This document shows, in pieces, positions 7,418 to 40,995 of a DNA stretch of 41,587 nucleotides. The notes under the pieces are model-generated. The model was not told the origin of the DNA. It worked only from the letters and a program-made list of their open reading frames with translations, and did not search any database. The position numbers and the translations under genes are program-made. The stretch comes from a virus. Location: positions 1 to 41,587 of the IMG/VR virus record IMGVR_UViG_3300027759_000166, one strand, 5' to 3'. Position 1 is the first letter of the stretch; the number at the start of each line of letters is the position of its first letter.

Positions 7418-8803
7418 TTATTCAGTTTTTTGATTCTCTCGTTCTTTTCTTTTTTCTAACAATTCTTTAACCCTTTGTCTTTGTCTTTCTTCTTTTTGTT
7501 CTTCAAGACCTAAGAATGTGGTTGTAGATTCGGTATCAATGTCAATCATAGCGTTATCAAATTTGCAATTTTCAAAAACCACACCGTCATCTCCGACACG
7601 AGACTTGGTAATTGCAATTGTGGCTAATTTCATTTCTTTTTGTTGTAACGTTTTTGCTACTGTAATAATAACGTGACCTACTTGAGCCTTTTTGATTGAT
7701 CCTCCCATTTGATCGGTTGTAACAACTTGAGAAGATATAGATGCTCTATTACCTTGTGTTGCGGTCCAACCAACAAGATTTAATTCATGACACATAGACT
7801 CAAATCCTCTCATAACCGAACCTTCACTTTTCCATTCGTCACCCAAATTTTTATCAGGAACGATACAGTCAATATAATCCAAAACAATCATGTCTATCTT
7901 AATTCCGTCCGCAATCATTTTTCTGATTTCGTTCTTTATTTGAGTCATTGTTTTAGTATCTGAAGGTAGTTTTTTCAAATCTAATGTGTTTGGCATTTTT
8001 TCTTTGATTTCTTTTACCTTATTCATCACCTCTTCTTTTTTTTCTGATAATTCATCAGGGTGAATCTTTGTCCAAAGGGTAAAATGTTTCCTTTGTATCA
8101 CTTTTGGGTTGTCTTCAAAAAATATTTGAAGAACGTTAAATCCTAAGTTAAATGCGTGATTTGAAATCTTTGTGAGGATGGTAGACTTACCTACTCCTGT
8201 TGGCGCCAATATAACACCGATCTCACCTTTTGCTAATCCTCCTTTTAACAACCTATCAATTCCTGGAATTCCCATTGGGATAGGGTGTCTGTAATCCTCG
8301 TCCAAGACTTGGTCTAAATTTGAGAAGACATCCATTGTTGTAGTGTCTTTTGACCCAACAAGTAGGGCTTCTCTAACCAGTTCTTCTAGTGTGTCATAGT
8401 TTTCAAACTCACCACCGTCTATGATTTTTTGTGCCTTTTTCATTACTTTCTGTAACTCTTGTTGTTTACAGAATTTAAGTGCCTTTTCTTGTACGAAATC
8501 TACACCATCGATAGGTGCGTCCTTGATTTTTTTAATTGTGTCAAGAACTACTTTAACTGCGGTTTCTTGTTGTAATTCGGATTTTGCGACTTGTTCTAAG
8601 GTATCAAACGATGGTGTATGCTCGTATTTTGTATAATACTCTTTTACCATCTGAATGATAATCTTAAAGTACTTATTCTCAAAATAATTATTTTCAATAA
8701 CGTCAATAATTGAGTGAGAAAATTCTTTGTCTAAAATGATTTGATTAAGTAATTGTATCTGAAAATTGTTACCGAGATATTCAAAATTTTTATTAGTCGC
8801 CAT
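7418..8803 (-). CDS. 41: Replicative DNA helicase, DnaB/T4 gp41-like
   Basis: The 461-residue protein has the two-part build of DnaB-family hexameric helicases: a helical N-terminal domain (to about residue 150) and a RecA-like motor. Walker A is APTGVGKST at 200-208; Walker B is IDMIVLDYID near 315, and a TQGNRASISS motif with following Gln/Arg-rich stretch fits the later helicase motifs. T4 gp41 is 475 residues. It unwinds the fork for leading-strand synthesis and recruits primase. No primase (gp61) or loader (gp59) is recognisable beside it. The C-terminus is a highly charged Glu/Lys/Arg helix. A TATTTATC motif lies 22 bases upstream in the short gap after the 149-residue gene. Confidence 0.88.
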   Translation of the reverse strand: MATNKNFEYLGNNFQIQLLNQIILDKEFSHSIIDVIENNYFENKYFKIIIQMVKEYYTKYEHTPSFDTLEQVAKSELQQETAVKVVLDTIKKIKDAPIDGVDFVQEKALKFCKQQELQKVMKKAQKIIDGGEFENYDTLEELVREALLVGSKDTTTMDVFSNLDQVLDEDYRHPIPMGIPGIDRLLKGGLAKGEIGVILAPTGVGKSTILTKISNHAFNLGFNVLQIFFEDNPKVIQRKHFTLWTKIHPDELSEKKEEVMNKVKEIKEKMPNTLDLKKLPSDTKTMTQIKNEIRKMIADGIKIDMIVLDYIDCIVPDKNLGDEWKSEGSVMRGFESMCHELNLVGWTATQGNRASISSQVVTTDQMGGSIKKAQVGHVIITVAKTLQQKEMKLATIAITKSRVGDDGVVFENCKFDNAMIDIDTESTTTFLGLEEQKEERQRQRVKELLEKRKERENQKTE

Positions 8804-8825
8804 AGTTTTTCTTTCTGTTAGTAAT

Positions 8826-8833
8826 GATAAATA
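8826..8833 (-). promoter_or_regulatory. TATTTATC motif before the gp41 helicase
   Basis: The minus strand reads GAGTATTTATCATTAC, 22 bases before the helicase ATG and just after the preceding stop codon. It fits the window-wide motif, though helicase genes are usually expressed early, so this copy could be fortuitous or could drive late re-expression. Confidence 0.3.
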
Positions 8834-8836
8834 CTC

Positions 8837-9286
8837 TTACTTTTGAATAAATTGTGGATAGAAATAATTAAATTTTTTACCTGAAAAAATGTCAGTTAGG
8901 TCTGTAAGTACCTGTTTTAACTTTGGCCGTAGATCTACGGTATATCTTACCTTTGGTGGGTACACTTTAGCGTCAAATGATCTCTGACAAATTATCATGT
9001 TATCAACTTTAACATAAAGGTTAAAGTTTTCAAGTCCTTCTGTAATTGAAGTGTTCAATACATCTGGATTTTCAGTAATCTCATATCTGTTTTCCAACAT
9101 ATAAACTACCGATCTCATTTTTAAATCATACTTAAGGTCATTACAAAATGTCCTTATATAATCATAAAACTCTTCCGATTTGTGGGCGTGTTTATTAAAC
9201 CCTTTTACATTAAAAAATCTTTGTACTACGATGTTGTCATTACACATCAACAAAAATTCTAACTTAGTTACGTCTTGTTCTTTCAT
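8837..9286 (-). CDS. Unrecognised 149-residue protein in the replication operon
   Basis: I do not recognise this protein. It is predicted soluble, mixed alpha/beta, with the segments LEFLLMCNDNIVVQRFF near the start and MIICQRSFDAKVYPPKVRYTVDL at about residues 97-120, a pattern suggesting a duplicated strand-turn unit (both halves have N-[IM]-I-x-[VC]-Q-R-[FS]-F). It is wedged between rnh (2 bases upstream) and gp41 (33 bases downstream), so a role in replication or helicase loading is plausible from position alone. Confidence 0.65.
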   Translation of the reverse strand: MKEQDVTKLEFLLMCNDNIVVQRFFNVKGFNKHAHKSEEFYDYIRTFCNDLKYDLKMRSVVYMLENRYEITENPDVLNTSITEGLENFNLYVKVDNMIICQRSFDAKVYPPKVRYTVDLRPKLKQVLTDLTDIFSGKKFNYFYPQFIQK

Positions 9287-29809: not shown

Positions 29810-32800
29810 TCAAACATCTTCGAAAGAAGCTCCCGTTGGTGTTATAAAGAATGTAATATCTATGAACTCTAACGATCTTGTTGGTTTGATGTAAATTTTA
29901 CCTGTCATTTGATTTCTATCTAAATCAGCAGTGTCACTTGAAACCGTTACTCTAAAGTCGTAAAGACCTCTGTCTCTTCTGATTCCGTCTAAAATAGGGT
30001 TAACCGCATTTAAGAAATCTTGTCTTACTTTTTCATCGTTTTGATCGAAAAGTAATCTAACTGAAACCGCAGATATTAATTTACGTGCTTGTAATAACAA
30101 TCTTCTAACGTTGATTCTATCAAGGGCTGATTGTCTAACTTGTAAAGTTTTGTTACCCCATATTACCGTACCTACATCTGAGAAAGTTGCAATTGGGTTA
30201 ATTCTTCCAAGATATAAAACATCTCTATCTTCTTGAGTCAACTTCTTACGTGCTTTAATTGAGTTAACAATACCACGAGTGTAACCCGCCGCTGCGAACC
30301 AAGGGAACGCGATGTTATCAGTTAACGCCAAGTTTCTTGTTACTTCAGCGGTTGGTGGTAAATAAATTTGAGTATTATTTACACTATCACGAGTTAATAC
30401 CCAAGGGTAATAAGTGGCCGTGTAGTTAGAGTCGATTCCCGTACCGTCAAGATTATCTACTGCCTCTTGTGGGTAAATTAATCCGTCAATACCTGTTGTT
30501 GTTGGTAATAACAAATTGTAATCAGGTGTTGTTGTAATGTACAATGAATCCGCTCTATCATTCTCAACCATATCAATAGTGTCTTCAACAAGGTCACTAT
30601 TATTTACATAATCAATACCAGGAGTTACGAATACGTTAATGTTAACCGCTTCAGGGTTAGCAAATGTTCTAATTCCTAACAAATATGCGTAATAATCGGT
30701 ATTTGCGTATTCTCTTGTTCCATCACCAACAGTGATTTGTTTGAACGCTCCCCAACCAATTGCGTTTGGATATCTTGTTGTAGCACAAGCTCCGTTAAGG
30801 TAACCTGTTCTACCTAATTGGTATTTGTCGGCGTTTGTTCTTCTTTCTCTGTAAATGTCCCAACCGTCAAATCCACCTTGTACTAATACTGTAAATTTAC
30901 GAGCGAATAATCTATAGTATGGGTTTGTCTCAACTGTAGGTTCACTACTAAAGTCTGCCGCTCCTGCGTAGAACCTAGGAGTTCCACTTGTTGCAAATAC
31001 ATTTGCAATTGTGATACCACTTGCGTTTTTATCCATGTGGAAACCTCTTGTTCTATATAACCAAGGAGAAGATTCAGTGGCGAAACATATGTTGGACGGG
31101 TTTCTTTTTCCTTTGTATTCAAAGAAACTAGGATCGTATCCATAATCTGCACTTGTAGAAAATCCTAAGTAAGTTTTTCTAATATTATCTCCCGAAGAAA
31201 GTCCTGCATCATCAGTTCCTGATGGAGTACCAAACGGAGGATTAAATACTAATTCACCAGGGAAATCATATTTTGTTTTAATAATAGGGAATGGAGATCT
31301 TGCTCCTGAATACTCTCTAAAATTGTATCCCTCAAAACCACAAGGTAAAGAATCAATAGGAGCATCCTCATTCATTTCTACCATTACGTATCTTGACTTT
31401 AATTCGTATTCACCGTCTAACGTACCTATTTTTTTAGCTATAAAGTTATTTTCACTTGGGTTCATAGAACAGTTAGTAAATTTCTCAACAACAACAGGGT
31501 TAGAATCTGTATCATAATAATCACGAACTAAAACCGTAAATGTTTCATTTGCAAATGAGATATCAGATATTGATACTTTAACTTCTGTATTTGCACTATT
31601 ACCATCAGAAATTGTATAGAATTTAAATAGATTATAAACTTTAGAACCTCTTAATTCAGAAACAACCCATGGACTTTCAGGTGATTGATATTTTTCTAAA
31701 TACCATCCAATTGATGTTGGGTCTTCACTTTGTGCTTCAGGTAAAGATATTAAATCACATTTTAAACCTCTAATATAACCTTTATTGTATGCCCATCTTA
31801 ATAATGATTGGAATCTTTCCTCAACAAATAAAGGAACTACGTTTCTTGGTTTACCAAAATTACTACCTCCAAACACTTTAGAAATATATTCGGAATCTGA
31901 ATTAGAGAAAGAAGTTACAAAACTAAAATTATTACCAAGGTAATTTGTTGCGTTTATTACGAATTTTGCAAAAGGATTTTTAAGTACGTCATCATATTGT
32001 CCTGTACAATCAATGTTAACATCTGTTAAACCTGTTATTTCAAATCTTGGATTAACATCATCACTATAGTCGGCAATACCTCTTGATCTTAAAGTTGCGA
32101 CAACCATATCATCATACTCTGTATATGAATTACCACTATAAACATAAATCATACCCACAACGGTACCTGAATAACAATCTAAAACAGTTGTTGTAGTTGT
32201 AGTTGTTGGTACAACAGGTGTAGGGGTAACACAAGGATTTGGAGTTGGTGTTGGTATTGGTAATGTTGAAGTTGTTGTTGTAATAGGATTAATTAAAGTT
32301 AAACCTGTAACTACATTCCAAAAAGAATAACCTGTATATAAACCATTTCCTGTATTTTCAAATAACGCATAATACCAAGGATCATTAAATGGTGATGTAA
32401 AATCAGTTAATGAACTTGATGGTGATGGAACATTAAACACGTTTGTAGATGCGGTATATCCTGTTGATAACACATCATAATCATCTCCGTCAATTGTACC
32501 AAAATATGCAATAGACGTATTTTCTGAAGGTGGGTTTAATATTCTTTGGTATGTGAAGAATTGTAAATCGTTTAACAATGTTGAGGTACTACCATTAAAT
32601 TGTTCATATTGATTAGTTAAAATATCTTCGATCTCATCAGGGAATAAACCAAATTCAACTGATGATGCACTGTTTGAACATCCCGTAAACGTTACTGTGA
32701 AAGGAATTGTTTTAGCCAATACACAAACAGGTTCACAAGAACCAGAAGGGGTAACTGCACTTAAACAATATGGTGTTAATGTTGCTGGATCTAAATTTGC

Positions 32801-33139
32801 ACTTGTAATTATAGACCAAGATGGTCCTGCATCATATCCTGATAAACCTAATACTCTTGTAACAAACAATTGATTTGATTGTTGTAAGTAGGATTTAGCG
32901 ATATAAGCCGCCTCATATTTTGGAATTTGTGTATTAACAAATTTTTCAGGTGTTGTACCACCAAAGTAGGATTGGAATTCGTCAAAGTTTTTTATAAAGA
33001 TTGGTTCAAATGCTGGACCTTTTAAAGTTTCTCCGACAATCCCTAAAGTTGTAACACCAACACTCTGTGCCACAAAACTTAAATCTACTTCTGAAGTATA
33101 GACACCAGGTGAAACGAAAATTTTACTGTTAGTTGCCAT
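29810..33139 (-). CDS. 18: Tail sheath protein, T4 gp18-like, enlarged
   Basis: The 1109-residue protein has the sheath start (KIFVSPGVYTSEVDLSF) and the conserved C-terminal sheath domain: NINVFVTPGIDYV near 845-860, then NVRRLLLQARKLISAVSVRLLFDQND and the final YDFRVTVSSDTADLDRNQMTGKI block. It contracts to drive the tube into the cell. T4 gp18 has 659 residues; the extra ~450 lie mainly between residues 130 and 620. They include a Thr/Pro-rich low-complexity linker at about 283-320 (PTPTPNPC, then a run of seven Thr) and probably surface-exposed beta domains. It has its own TATTTATA motif with a 38-base leader and a strong terminator. Confidence 0.92.
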   Translation of the reverse strand: MATNSKIFVSPGVYTSEVDLSFVAQSVGVTTLGIVGETLKGPAFEPIFIKNFDEFQSYFGGTTPEKFVNTQIPKYEAAYIAKSYLQQSNQLFVTRVLGLSGYDAGPSWSIITSANLDPATLTPYCLSAVTPSGSCEPVCVLAKTIPFTVTFTGCSNSASSVEFGLFPDEIEDILTNQYEQFNGSTSTLLNDLQFFTYQRILNPPSENTSIAYFGTIDGDDYDVLSTGYTASTNVFNVPSPSSSLTDFTSPFNDPWYYALFENTGNGLYTGYSFWNVVTGLTLINPITTTTSTLPIPTPTPNPCVTPTPVVPTTTTTTTVLDCYSGTVVGMIYVYSGNSYTEYDDMVVATLRSRGIADYSDDVNPRFEITGLTDVNIDCTGQYDDVLKNPFAKFVINATNYLGNNFSFVTSFSNSDSEYISKVFGGSNFGKPRNVVPLFVEERFQSLLRWAYNKGYIRGLKCDLISLPEAQSEDPTSIGWYLEKYQSPESPWVVSELRGSKVYNLFKFYTISDGNSANTEVKVSISDISFANETFTVLVRDYYDTDSNPVVVEKFTNCSMNPSENNFIAKKIGTLDGEYELKSRYVMVEMNEDAPIDSLPCGFEGYNFREYSGARSPFPIIKTKYDFPGELVFNPPFGTPSGTDDAGLSSGDNIRKTYLGFSTSADYGYDPSFFEYKGKRNPSNICFATESSPWLYRTRGFHMDKNASGITIANVFATSGTPRFYAGAADFSSEPTVETNPYYRLFARKFTVLVQGGFDGWDIYRERRTNADKYQLGRTGYLNGACATTRYPNAIGWGAFKQITVGDGTREYANTDYYAYLLGIRTFANPEAVNINVFVTPGIDYVNNSDLVEDTIDMVENDRADSLYITTTPDYNLLLPTTTGIDGLIYPQEAVDNLDGTGIDSNYTATYYPWVLTRDSVNNTQIYLPPTAEVTRNLALTDNIAFPWFAAAGYTRGIVNSIKARKKLTQEDRDVLYLGRINPIATFSDVGTVIWGNKTLQVRQSALDRINVRRLLLQARKLISAVSVRLLFDQNDEKVRQDFLNAVNPILDGIRRDRGLYDFRVTVSSDTADLDRNQMTGKIYIKPTRSLEFIDITFFITPTGASFEDV

Positions 33140-36839: not shown

Positions 36840-37145
36840 ATGGATAGATATAGTACAAAAAAAATAGAGAATATCTTAAGAAGAATTTTAAGAGAAGAGG
36901 AAGAAGAAAGTGAACTAACCTCAATCTTTAAAGAAAAAGGATATTCAAATATTCCTGAAGCGTGTAAACCAAGTACAGACACCTCAACAGGAGAAATTTC
37001 ATCTAATATTAAATCGTGTTTTGATGAATTTCAAAAGGCAAATCAACAAGTAATGGATATTGCAAACGCATTAAAAGGTCTTATGGACGAAAAAGGAATA
37101 CAAGCAGAATCAAGAAGAAGATCTTTAAATAGAAGAAGATACTAA
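36840..37145 (+). CDS. Small charged helical protein with (L/I)xE N-terminus
   Basis: I do not recognise this 101-residue protein. It opens with a basic amphipathic helix (STKKIENILRRILREEEEE) whose ILRE|E is an (L/I)xE site of the kind cut by prohead proteases. The middle is helical with two Cys (EACKPS and IKSCFDEF), and the C-terminus is Arg-rich (ESRRRSLNRRRY), which suits nucleic-acid binding. Expected from the late motif 14 bases upstream to be made late, and ended by its own terminator. A head-internal, DNA-contacting role is inference. Confidence 0.6.
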   Translation: MDRYSTKKIENILRRILREEEEESELTSIFKEKGYSNIPEACKPSTDTSTGEISSNIKSCFDEFQKANQQVMDIANALKGLMDEKGIQAESRRRSLNRRRY

Positions 37146-37698: not shown

Positions 37699-37706
37699 TA
37701 TTTATT
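37699..37706 (+). promoter_or_regulatory. TATTTATT motif before the metallopeptidase-SOD fusion
   Basis: Plus-strand GATATTTATTTTTA lies only 4 bases before the ATG at 37711, directly after the preceding terminator. If it is the promoter, the transcript would have almost no leader. Confidence 0.4.
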
Positions 37707-37710
37707 TTTA

Positions 37711-39837
37711 ATGAAAGTTACTTTTAAAAACATAGGGGCAAATATAGATGATAAGAAAAACGATCTATTAAAGAAGTTTTGTAAATTTTTACAAAAAAAT
37801 CACAAATTAAAAGAGGATATTACTATCCATCTTATGGGTGAAAAAATTGGCAGAATGACAACAGGTAGTCAACATAAAGAAAAGGGTATTAAGGTATTAA
37901 TAAATAATAGAATGAATAGGGATATCTTAAGAACTTTGGCTCACGAATGGGTTCATTCATATCAAAGAAATGTTATTGGCAGAGATAGGGGACCAGATAT
38001 TGGAGGTCAAAATGAAGATGAAGCAAATTCATTGTCAGGATCTTTAGTTAAATCTTTTGAAAAAGAAAATCCTGATTTAGATAATATAATATATGAAGGG
38101 TACGGTACAATCTATAAAAGAATTGATTTATTAAAAGAGGAAATTATTATCTACGATAAAGTTAATATAAAAAATAACTTTATTATGGAAATGAAAAAGA
38201 TTGGTATCGATAAATTACCTTATTCATATTCGGCAATAAAACAATTTGTTGATCCAAAAACTATGGATATCCACTATAATAAACATTATAAAGGATATGT
38301 AAAAAAACTTAATGATGCTTTATCTAAAAAAAAATATGGTGATTTAGAGTTAGAAGATATTATTAAATCAATTGGTAAATATGATGACACCATAAGAAAT
38401 AATGCCGGAGGTGCATTTAATCACGCATTATTTTGGAAAATGTTGTCTCCAAAGAAACAGGTCCCTAAAGGTGAGGTATTTGAAAAGATCAACAAACAAT
38501 ACGGTAACATTAAAAAAATGAAAGATGAGTTTAATGATGTTGCAAAGAAAAGGTTTGGTTCTGGTTGGGTTTGGTTATTCTTAACAAAGACAAATAGATT
38601 AAAAATTATGTCTACACCAAATCAAGATAATCCATTAATGAACGTTATAAAAGACGGTGGTTATCCACTACTTGGTCTTGATCTTTGGGAGCATTCGTAT
38701 TATTTAAAATATCAAAATAAAAGGGATGAATACATTAAAAATTTTTGGAATAGTGTTAATTGGGAATTTGTTAATGAATTGTACTTAAGTAGGACAAAAA
38801 ACATAAATGAGTCATTAACTGAGGATTCTATTTTATCTGAAGCTAAAGAGGTCTTCCCATTAACCTCAAAATCTTTTAGAGGTTTAATAAACGATGCTTA
38901 CCCTAAATGTGATGGTTTAAAACACACAAACGGTTGTTTAGGAAAAATTGAGACAGAACAATGTAAAACTGATGAAGGGATCATTGGTGGTAAATATACT
39001 GAGCAAAATTATGGAGGTATTGGTAATTGGTCTATTATAAATAGATTTGATACGAATAGTTCCGTACATAAAGAGATTCAAAAAATTTGGTCAGAGGAAA
39101 CTAATTCCGTAGAAAATTTTAGAACATGGATTACAAATAACATGGGAGAACTGGTTGGGGATGAAGGAAGATTTACTGAAAGATTGGTGAATCTAAACGT
39201 AAAAACAATAGTTGACGGTAGAGCAAATGAGAATTATGCAAAGTCAGTTTTAGTTACTTCATTTAAGTTAAATCCTGAAGAGGAAGGTCTTACTTGGAAT
39301 ATTATAGAGAGGTGTGCTGGGGATGTTAGGGATAGAAAATTAGGTCAAGACTTTGATGTTGTTATTGATAATGTCTCATATTACATTCAGGTAAAGCCAA
39401 TTGATTATAAAAAAATTGAAAAGATTGGGTCAGAGAGGGGATACTATTATAAGGTACCTTCTTGGCATTACCATTCTAAATATACTGAAAGTAACGTTGA
39501 TGTTATTTTGTATGTTGATAGACCAAAAGAAAAATTTGTTATGTTTAGAAATGATTTTGCGAGAATTCAAACGGTTGCGAACCCAACAACATTCCCTAAA
39601 TTTTTTGTAATATATTACGAGAATCCTTTAAAAACAAATATGGATTTTGAGGTTATAGTCGAGCCTGATAAGGTAGAATCAAAACTTAAACTTACAAGAG
39701 ACACCCAAACAGAAATTGAGTACTATAGAGAAAGGATACAATATTATAAAGATAAATTACGTGAACTTGGCGATTCTGAAAATATAACTGAAATGATCAA
39801 GTATTACAATGAAGAGTTATATCAACTTATTAATTAA
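37711..39837 (+). CDS. Metallopeptidase-like / Mn-type superoxide dismutase / PD-(D/E)XK-like fusion protein
   Basis: This 708-residue protein has three parts. Residues 1-130: a zinc-peptidase-like domain with HEWVH (H78, E79, H82) and a downstream E104 as likely third ligand. Residues 165-360: a full Fe/Mn superoxide dismutase, from KLPYSYSAIKQF to NFWNSVNWEFV, with metal ligands H188, H238, D324 and H328, gateway Tyr Y196, and the Mn-type pair G234/Q305. Residues 363-380: a linker with LTE|D and ILSE|A sites of prohead-protease type. Residues ~385-650: a domain whose GQDFDVV (D547/D549) and IQVK (Q560, K562), with E533, form a PD-(D/E)XK-like nuclease core. The end (660-708) is a Tyr/Glu/Lys coiled coil. 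Superoxide removal and peptide/DNA cleavage are family-based predictions; the combination is new to me. It is transcribed just before the gp13 neck gene. Confidence 0.85.
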   Translation: MKVTFKNIGANIDDKKNDLLKKFCKFLQKNHKLKEDITIHLMGEKIGRMTTGSQHKEKGIKVLINNRMNRDILRTLAHEWVHSYQRNVIGRDRGPDIGGQNEDEANSLSGSLVKSFEKENPDLDNIIYEGYGTIYKRIDLLKEEIIIYDKVNIKNNFIMEMKKIGIDKLPYSYSAIKQFVDPKTMDIHYNKHYKGYVKKLNDALSKKKYGDLELEDIIKSIGKYDDTIRNNAGGAFNHALFWKMLSPKKQVPKGEVFEKINKQYGNIKKMKDEFNDVAKKRFGSGWVWLFLTKTNRLKIMSTPNQDNPLMNVIKDGGYPLLGLDLWEHSYYLKYQNKRDEYIKNFWNSVNWEFVNELYLSRTKNINESLTEDSILSEAKEVFPLTSKSFRGLINDAYPKCDGLKHTNGCLGKIETEQCKTDEGIIGGKYTEQNYGGIGNWSIINRFDTNSSVHKEIQKIWSEETNSVENFRTWITNNMGELVGDEGRFTERLVNLNVKTIVDGRANENYAKSVLVTSFKLNPEEEGLTWNIIERCAGDVRDRKLGQDFDVVIDNVSYYIQVKPIDYKKIEKIGSERGYYYKVPSWHYHSKYTESNVDVILYVDRPKEKFVMFRNDFARIQTVANPTTFPKFFVIYYENPLKTNMDFEVIVEPDKVESKLKLTRDTQTEIEYYRERIQYYKDKLRELGDSENITEMIKYYNEELYQLIN

Positions 39838-39867: not shown

Positions 39868-40995
39868 ATGTCGATAATAAGTAATGAAGAAAGAGAAAGA
39901 CTATATACGAGAGTACGACATGTCTTGGGAGCACCTTTAAGATCTGTTGAACTTGAGGATGAACAGTTAGACACTTTATTAGAGTTCTCTATTGAGGACT
40001 ACTCTCAGTACATCCAAGATTGGTTAATTGAGAGTCAGTGGACAAGTCTTTGGGGTCTTAATGTTGAAACCCAATCATTGGCTAACGCATTTATGACAAA
40101 AAGTTTAGATTATGAAACAAGGTACACTTACGCATATTCTAAAATTGTAGGACTACAGGCAGGAGGAGATTCTGTAATGAAAAAAGATTACATCCAATTA
40201 GTTCCTAATCAACAAATATATGAAATACCTGCAGGTAGAGAAATTAATGAACTTTTATGGTTCAGTCCTGCAACCTTAAACAATACAATGTTTGATCCAT
40301 GGTCTTTTGGTTCTTTAGGTGTTGGTGGTGGACTTGGAGGAGGTGGAGGTCTTGCTCAAATGGGTAATATGGCAGGTAGTTACTTTATGATGCCGGCTTT
40401 TGATATGTTATTAAGAATGCAAGAAATTAATATACAAAGAAGAATTATTGTTGGGGATTTAACATATAGGATTACCGCATTACCTGGAGGTAAAAAGGCG
40501 ATTCACTTAATGAATACTCCCGGTAGTAAATTTGATTTTGGTAACTCAACATTAGCAAAAGGTAAGGTTTGGTATTGGTATTATCCAACAGATGAAAACG
40601 ATAGAGACAGATGTTTAAAAGAGAATCCAGATATAATTAAAATGCCTTCTGATGTTCCCTTTGAAAGAGTAAGTTGGACCGAACTAAATAACCCGTCACA
40701 AATTTGGGTTAGAAGGTGGTTTGTGGCATCAGCGAAAGAATTATTATCAAAAGTAAGAGGTAAGTTTAGTGGTAATTTAAAGGCTCCTGATGGTGATCTT
40801 ACTATGGATTATCAGTCATTGGCTACGGAAGGTAAAGATGAAAAAACTAAATTACTTGACGAATTGATTGGTACTGAAGGTAGACTCACAAGATTAAAAC
40901 CGGAAAAGGTAATGGAAAGAGAAGCGTTAATTGCGGAAAACTTAAACAAGACTCTTAAATTTAGAGCCATGCCAAGACAAATTTATGTAATATGA
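39868..40995 (+). CDS. 13: Neck / head-completion protein, T4 gp13-like
   Basis: The 375-residue protein fits T4 gp13 (309 residues), which caps the packaged head and connects to the tail. The N-terminal EERERLYTRVRHVLGAPLR and ELEDEQLDTLLEFSIEDYSQ blocks and the C-terminal LSKVRGKFSG (near 290), LTMDYQSLATEGK (near 310) and EALIAENLNKTLKF ... PRQIYVI (350-375) form the recognised family pattern. A Gly-rich loop (GVGGGLGGGGG near 150) is an insertion. Its stop overlaps the next ATG by 4 bases. It lies on the plus strand whereas gp14/gp15-like genes are on the minus strand, so the neck cluster is split. Confidence 0.6.
   Translation: MSIISNEERERLYTRVRHVLGAPLRSVELEDEQLDTLLEFSIEDYSQYIQDWLIESQWTSLWGLNVETQSLANAFMTKSLDYETRYTYAYSKIVGLQAGGDSVMKKDYIQLVPNQQIYEIPAGREINELLWFSPATLNNTMFDPWSFGSLGVGGGLGGGGGLAQMGNMAGSYFMMPAFDMLLRMQEINIQRRIIVGDLTYRITALPGGKKAIHLMNTPGSKFDFGNSTLAKGKVWYWYYPTDENDRDRCLKENPDIIKMPSDVPFERVSWTELNNPSQIWVRRWFVASAKELLSKVRGKFSGNLKAPDGDLTMDYQSLATEGKDEKTKLLDELIGTEGRLTRLKPEKVMEREALIAENLNKTLKFRAMPRQIYVI

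Follow-up and report, generated by a model that had tools for sequence, protein, structure and literature searches.

A phage gene joining a zincin-like domain, a superoxide dismutase and an exchangeable C-terminal part: a candidate head-packaged enzyme precursor

Why would a phage join a superoxide dismutase (SOD) to two other enzyme-like domains in a single gene placed just before a neck-like gene? The question is raised by the IMG/VR virus record IMGVR_UViG_3300027759_000166, of which positions 1 to 41,587 were analyzed (hereafter the window). A preliminary description of its sequence had proposed that one frame, at 37711-39837 on the plus strand, fuses a zinc-peptidase-like domain, a complete Mn-type SOD and a nuclease-like domain, and translation bore out a single stop-free frame of 708 residues. 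The answer that we favor, with slightly better than an even chance of being right, is that the gene encodes a late-expressed, head-packaged and modular enzyme precursor, which would be cut by a gp21-like prohead protease. The parts of the gene are the following, with the basis of each assignment in parentheses.

37711..39837, plus strand: zincin / Mn-type SOD / PD-(D/E)XK-like fusion gene, 708 amino acids (aa) (open reading frame (ORF) and Pfam)
37711..38097, plus strand: N domain with zincin fold, residues 1-129, with HEWVH at 78-82 (37942-37956) and NEDEAN at 101-106 (AlphaFold2 model, VIA-align, conservation)
38098..38190, plus strand: linker 1, residues 130-160, whose candidate sites end at E143 and E160, and a weaker one at the edge, E129 (motif conservation)
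38206..38778, plus strand: Mn-type Fe/Mn superoxide dismutase, residues 166-356 (Pfam, PDB sequence match, conserved residues)
38791..38847, plus strand: linker 2, residues 361-379, with INE-367, LTE-371 and LSE-377, predicted disordered (model, conservation, enrichment)
38848..39834, plus strand: type A C-terminal part, residues 380-708, with a PD-(D/E)XK-like core at 497-644 and a terminal helical hairpin (model, fold matches, conservation)

The profile search of the SOD segment had been named beforehand as one on which the fusion should stand or fall. It matched both Pfam SOD domains, Sod_Fe_N over residues 166-246 (E 1.7e-20, 73.7 bits for a cut-off of 27) and Sod_Fe_C over residues 252-356 (E 1.4e-38, 131.5 bits for a cut-off of 20.9), and the closest solved chain by sequence was the SOD 6gsc (E 2.9e-60, residues 168-358). 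H188, H238, D324, H328, Y196, G234 and Q305 all stand where the preliminary description had placed them, and they are identical in 104 of the 104 distinct zincin-SOD cores that we collected from viral contigs. We take the three histidines and the aspartate to be the metal ligands, Y196 the gateway tyrosine and Q305 the second-shell glutamine. Judged by these residues the SOD part looks active, and we would guess at a role in superoxide defence. The earlier suggestion that the SOD scaffold had been reused for structure is disfavored because none of the tabulated SOD positions, the metal ligands included, varies across these cores. Three phage-labelled, unannotated records (OR850395, OR845917, OR846594) contain SODs that are 43-48% identical to that of the window; these are perhaps bacterial DNA.

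The N-terminal part also agreed with the preliminary description, which had called it an HEWVH zinc-peptidase-like domain. H78, E79, H82, E102 and E104 are invariant in the 104 cores, and E102 or E104 is a candidate for the zinc-binding glutamate. The AlphaFold2 model, built from 76 sequences, reached a predicted local distance difference test (pLDDT) score of 90.5, and VIA-align matched it to zincins, with Z 10.0 to 1oz9 (108 residues, 2.8 A), 8.2-9.7 to M1 aminopeptidases, 9.1 to YbeY (7y7o), 8.6 to Wss1 and 7.5 to a DPC-repair protease; 20 of 988 chains gave Z >= 8. Since YbeY is a metallo-endoribonuclease, the fold does not imply peptidase activity. Foldseek alone gave no match to this model at E <= 0.001, and profile searches against Pfam and PDB sequences gave nothing credible for the N part or for the type A part. 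Named peptidase families stayed under their cut-offs in the window protein (DUF6055, 18 of 27 bits; M76, 14.3 of 25.2; SprT-like, 13.6 of 25.6), and weak family matches also occurred in other members, with DUF6055 in 55 of 76. The sole PHROG match of the N part was phrog_1365 (E 0.012, residues 25-104), and none of 170 pattern-matching stretches in the genome collection was confirmed. Only two phage relatives of the domain were found, both distant, in the Synechococcus phages B23 and S-SRM01 (3 records). The freestanding relative of B23 begins MNYKQFLRES, which holds an LxE; that of S-SRM01 does not begin so.

The family around this protein is large. Three scans of the viral collection for relatives returned 142, 133 and at least 168 stretches, of which the best 80 of each were used, and the type A part alone, taken as query, returned 18 stretches. 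With frames classified by profiles built in this analysis, and with fragments included in the counts, a zincin followed by an SOD was found in at least 120 distinct frames from viral contigs: 50 carried no further domain, 28 carried A, 20 C, 11 E, 7 D, 3 D-A and 1 D-D-A. A zincin lacking the SOD was seen in one frame only, which was ended by the contig end. The set of 104 cores omits frames open at the 5' end, SOD parts shorter than 190 residues, frames open at the 3' end that show no cargo, and identical cores; L174, which is open at the 3' end, was assigned cargo D by hand. Across this set, 27 of 28 tabulated positions are identical in every core, and the remaining one, E143, is a glutamate in 100 of 104.

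The possibility that an assembly or frameshift artefact had joined unrelated genes was considered and rejected, and we give it practically no chance. A search for the same domain order, as the preliminary description had proposed, recovered 28 distinct frames of the zincin-SOD-A type among the 120 with zincin and SOD, and the neighborhood is similar in nine loci; because the same combination recurs in many contigs, assembly error is excluded. Nothing in the window speaks for an artefact. One relative (L186:4001-6145) is split into two overlapping frames, probably by a frameshift in the contig.

What follows the zincin-SOD core is far from constant. It is either nothing or one of four C-terminal kinds (A, C, D, E), singly or combined, and the nuclease-like part of the window, type A, is missing from many relatives, a feature that the preliminary description had not seen. 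On a tree of the 104 cores, the state of this cargo changed 24 times, for a least possible number of 6 and a shuffled mean of 55.1; the last part was therefore inherited for a time and often swapped. The tree was a quick one, in which 41 of 101 inner branches are well supported and near-copies cluster, and the well-supported branches alone require at least 10 changes for A, at least 7 for E and at least 7 for the absence of cargo. Cargo D is also encoded by standalone genes, which at several loci lie in tandem and adjoin the fusion. Such tandem copies, with MKIIITE-type leaders, were noted at L042:5046-5963 and 7560-8963, L179:5607-6962 and L038:5201-5881. In the 12 records searched, C and E occurred in fusions only. 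Cargo E is about 350 aa long and occurs in 11 distinct fusions (e.g., L192:4134-5207). Type C showed no profile similarity to type A (hhalign probability 0.2) and no credible Pfam match; it carries invariant E, D and CK residues, on which we base no claim of a nuclease.

For the cargo of the window itself, the preliminary description had proposed a PD-(D/E)XK-like domain ending in a coiled coil. The first half of this proposal stood, on evidence that is weak but consistent, and the end was modelled as a hairpin of two helices (665-686 and 690-707). The model of residues 361-708, built on 24 sequences, had a pLDDT of 81.6, and its residues 497-644 weakly resemble the restriction-endonuclease fold. 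The best Foldseek match was I-Ssp6803I (E 9.2e-3), and VIA gave Z 7.3 to a SPARDA complex chain, 7.1 to DpnI, 6.3 to I-Ssp6803I, 6.0 to Hjc and 4.0-4.7 to RecU, all below 8; unrelated matches to the C-terminal hairpin reach Z 6.8. E507, D547, Q560 and K562, present in 24 of 24 type A sequences, form the E...D...QxK nuclease pattern. The window protein matched no Pfam nuclease family, while a few members gave scattered weak matches to other families. We thus label the domain PD-(D/E)XK-like and not a member of the superfamily, as no curated nuclease family matched. Searches for the type A part by tblastn at E <= 1 in 50,697 phage records, and by Foldseek with its model against viral models at E <= 0.001, returned nothing. 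Distant standalone relatives of type A are found in three related genome records (G002, G003, G006) and retain the E...D...QxK pattern by eye.

The joints between these parts share a motif. The gp21 protease of T4 is described as cutting after L/I-X-E (PMC9026906), and T4 Alt as being cleaved at ITE-6 and LTE-619 (PMC5694885). Of the 12 [LI]xE in the 708 aa of the window protein, six fall inside one of the two linkers or border on it. From an earlier set of 93 distinct proteins, the stretches of 25 residues or more between SOD and cargo were taken and deduplicated to 36 linkers; all 36 hold at least one [LI]xE, and 30 hold at least two. Two or more were present in 16 of 16 type A linkers (mean of 1000 shuffles 1.34, maximum 6) and in 11 of 12 type C linkers (shuffle mean 1.4, maximum 6). 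E377 is conserved in 24 of 24 type A sequences, and two linker glutamates of type C in 13 of 13. In linker 1, a glutamate is found at E129 in 104, at E143 in 100 and at E160 in 104 of the 104 cores, with a strict [LI]xE at E143 in 97 and at E160 in 103. Linker 2 is disordered in the model, whose residues 1-19 have pLDDT < 50. By these features the joints resemble sites at which the head-maturation protease of the phage itself might cut.

A different source of cutting would be the zincin itself, acting as a processing enzyme that cuts its own chain or its neighbors at the linkers, independently of gp21. Its HExxH motif and E102/E104 are invariant, and an SOD follows the zincin in every frame not ended by a contig end, which speaks for this explanation. 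However, the linker sites match the [LI]xE of the Glu-specific prohead protease, a motif also found in the leaders of genes that have no zincin, and we hold self-processing to be very improbable.

Upstream of the fusion, the late-type motif announced by the preliminary description is present, and a small gene lies farther upstream.

37699..37705, plus strand: TATTTAT late-type element upstream of the fusion gene (family upstream stretches)
36840..37145, plus strand: small gene with a leader-like N terminus (KIENILRRILREE) and a TATTTAT element (locus listing)

TATTTAT, which was selected after inspection of the upstream stretches, was found in 69 of the 77 distinct stretches that precede family members. 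In the related record G001 it also precedes the gp21- and gp22-like genes ('gp22-like' designates, by place only, the frame between the gp21- and gp23-like genes), and in the window it stands before the gp13-like gene; only 6 of the 16 window genes examined have it. In two genomes, the element and an N-terminal [LI]xE go together. With mechanical, ATG-only ORFs called piecewise, so that genes spanning piece ends were lost, an [LI]xE in residues 2-18 was found in G001 in 38 of 84 genes with TATTTAT and in 63 of 250 others (p 5.6e-4), and in G002 in 43 of 86 and 66 of 269 (p 1.2e-5). Among the G002 genes that have no G001 homologue, the counts were 23 of 32 and 33 of 124 (p 3.7e-6). Internal control windows showed no difference (p 0.66, 0.76, 0.89). 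Twelve sets of length, window and pattern were tried on G001 (p 1.6e-4 to 0.0085), and two patterns, at residues 2-18, were repeated on G002. Leader patterns written post hoc gave the same trend, with TATTTAT before 12 of 23 ORFs with patterns and 72 of 311 without (p 0.0046).

Of the 15 G002 ORFs with an MKIIITE-type leader, 11 have TATTTAT, compared with 86 of 355 overall. By eye, 21 of 22 distinct standalone D genes begin with an MKIII[TS]E-type leader, three of them with an in-frame extension ahead. At L179, the fusion joint IITENQSDKIN matches the start of the standalone D genes of that locus, from which it seems that the leader of a separate D gene became the joint of the fusion. Short leaders also recur on many genes that have no assigned function (MKIIITE..., ..LTESDLxRIVRRVIxE, MxSLxxEIxRIKxLMG), at L379-L392, L099 and L100 in G002 and at L097, L098 and L199-L211 in G001; they may be capsid-targeting leaders.

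Among seven records of relatives searched, a gp21-like protease was found in four (G001, for instance at L097:6574-7290, G002, G003, G005; 273-296 kb) and a gp23-like capsid protein in five (the same four and G007, 152 kb); the four with both are among five searched relatives of 270-296 kb. In G001-G003 the N terminus of the gp23-like protein includes FLINE-A. This capsid protein has its closest cultured matches, among those listed, in a Microcystis phage (43%) and the Flavobacterium phage immuto (41%), and the closest cellular relatives of the SOD are mostly Bacteroidota by title, the best being a Ferruginibacter metagenome-assembled genome (54%; best 80 of 281 matches). Because of these capsid-protein and SOD relatives, a Bacteroidota host is likely for these large T4-like phages.

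We infer from this material how the precursor might be expressed late, packaged, cut and ejected, and what its parts might do. The constant zincin-SOD pair and its exchangeable cargo, here a PD-(D/E)XK-like nuclease domain, would be made late as one precursor and enter the prohead, where a gp21-like protease would release the parts at the [LI]-x-E joints. If the chain were cut after E160, the SOD would be of ordinary length, and a cut after E377 would free the nuclease-like domain from its disordered tether. Once mature, the enzymes would share the head with the DNA and accompany it into the next host. There, the SOD might remove superoxide near the incoming DNA and proteins, and the zincin and the nuclease might act on host molecules, like the internal proteins and Alt of T4. 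The idea that the protein may be virion-associated, already raised in the preliminary description, thus gained indirect support, from the late-type element, the protease-like joints and the leader-bearing paralogues of cargo D. A more general form of the proposal is a cleavable virion polyprotein, whose zincin-SOD chassis would bring any of several cargos into the head, where the prohead protease would separate the enzymes for ejection; the MKIIITE-type leaders on many other late genes would then be the plainest version of the signal used by the polyprotein. We put this forward tentatively, as something short of an even chance.

Several observations weigh against a packaged precursor. The fusion has no N-terminal leader: an [LI]xE occurs within residues 2-12 in none of the 104 cores, and within residues 2-24 in 10. 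For this reason, prohead targeting would have to come from the zincin, from the joints themselves or from binding partners, which is the weak point of the proposal. Forty-one of the 104 cores are free of cargo. The motif is common in general: on average it is found in 43 of 334 random internal windows of 11 residues, compared with 71 of 334 windows at the N terminus, and E and K seem abundant in the linkers. Type D linkers hold at least one [LI]xE in 4 of 4 cases, inside the shuffle range (mean 1.84, maximum 4), and a strict motif is present at E129 in only 18 of 104 cores despite the glutamate in all. In the AlphaFold2 model, E143 and E160 lie inside a confidently predicted helix (132-164); since linker 1 is mostly helical in this prediction, easy cutting there is less likely. 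TATTTAT is AT-rich, stands before those 72 of 311 ORFs that have no leader pattern, and is missing before the sheath, tube and hub genes and before the gp23-like gene of G001. Finally, neither gp21- nor gp23-like genes were matched in G004 (274 kb) and G006 (224 kb), which are possibly fragments, so that with G007 three of the seven records, again possibly as fragments, gave no gp21-like protease.

The lack of a leader is also what would be expected if the fusion were a cytoplasmic multi-enzyme, unpackaged and uncut, in which the SOD protects the infected cell and the site of virion building while the tethered zincin and nuclease act there. The conservation of residues in all three parts fits such an enzyme, and standalone phage SOD genes lie among metabolic, translation and chaperone genes (Callisto, Vibrio phage 2.275.O). 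But the [LI]xE of the joints is kept although the linkers diverge, the upstream element is shared with head genes, and in some relatives a leader-bearing standalone cargo D adjoins the fusion. We consider a cytoplasmic enzyme rather unlikely, without dismissing it.

The place of the gene in the genome suggests yet another role.

39868..40995, plus strand: downstream neck / head-tail adaptor-like gene (phrog_211 match and gene order)

The preliminary description had placed the fusion directly before a gp13 neck gene. The next gene does adjoin it, and its assignment to the neck comes from gene order and from a single PHROG match, to the head-tail adaptor family phrog_211 (E 2.3e-10, residues 275-335 of 375 aa). 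A neck-like frame, recognized by eye from its similar start, comes next after the fusion in 7 of 9 loci, window included, and after the tandem D genes in the other 2. This position and the late-type element would suit a neck- or portal-associated structural protein that uses the SOD and zincin folds as dimerisation scaffolds. Such a protein is improbable, as a mere scaffold would not need the SOD ligands, the gateway tyrosine and the other positions that are identical in 104 of 104 cores, and a load-bearing part could hardly tolerate a cargo that is lost and swapped. Upstream of the fusion, a helicase-like frame was present in the loci listed, assigned by profile in the window alone. At L020:3513-5915, this frame has an apparent intein-like insertion starting directly after the P-loop (MGLGKAEFVENRVFTPNGRKKIGDLIVGDEV). 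Elsewhere in the window, a tail-sheath gene of 1109 aa (29810-33139) has a long N-terminal extension, its best sheath matches beginning at residue 830-896. At the portal position of G002, L099:2873-5968 encodes 1031 aa, compared with 608 in G001 and 602 in G003, through an in-frame insertion that is perhaps an intein.

If the precursor model is right, an antioxidant enzyme belongs to the injected payload of a phage, and a group of T4-like phages carries what it injects as one precursor whose modules can be swapped; superoxide would then appear to be a danger within minutes of infection. A short motif and an upstream element would predict packaged proteins among phage genes of unknown function, a gap that is still to be filled in jumbo phages. 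Should the leaders of other late genes carry the same signal, the sequence would suffice to recognize dozens of head-packaged proteins.

Among known systems, the internal proteins IPI-III and Alt of T4 are comparable in that these are T4-like phages with [LI]xE sites and with gp21- and gp23-like genes in related genomes; the MKIIITE-type leader of standalone cargo D also resembles the ITE-6 site of Alt. In contrast, the fusion has no leader of its own, combines two constant domains and an exchangeable cargo in one chain, shows no domain match to these proteins among the matches listed, and its packaging is proposed. As the N-terminal leader is absent, we do not class it as a T4-type internal protein, although it may work like one. 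In SPN3US, another large phage, Glu-specific prohead processing is described, three of its head proteins having propeptides 124-127 residues long (PMC5694885). Its ejection proteins, as presented there, share with the fusion a long leading part and the type of processing proposed for it, but the SPN3US motif is A-x-E, and the leading part of the fusion is an apparently intact zincin and no known propeptide.

As a precedent, an SOD packaged in virions is named for eukaryotic giant viruses (PMC9405923). These viruses are unrelated to the phages considered here, and the Megavirus enzyme is a Cu,Zn-SOD. The fold of Cu,Zn-SOD is unrelated to that of Fe/MnSOD. Phage-encoded Fe/MnSODs do exist as standalone proteins, in PA5oct-like phages and Vibrio phage 2.275.O; unlike the SOD studied here they are unfused (Callisto, 182 aa, 25% identical; 2.275.O, 189 aa, 28% identical). 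In the titles and abstract openings of the open-access papers listed, we recognized no report of a zincin-SOD-cargo fusion or of phage virions that contain an SOD. The exchange of C-terminal parts is likewise familiar from other proteins. The polymorphic toxins, secreted proteins of bacteria, have a constant leading part and swapped C-terminal parts, and the fusion likewise has a constant leading part and a repeatedly exchanged C-terminal part; the likeness is one of architecture. Phage SODs and packaged phage enzymes are each already known, and among the open-access papers listed we recognized no report that combines them with such an exchange.

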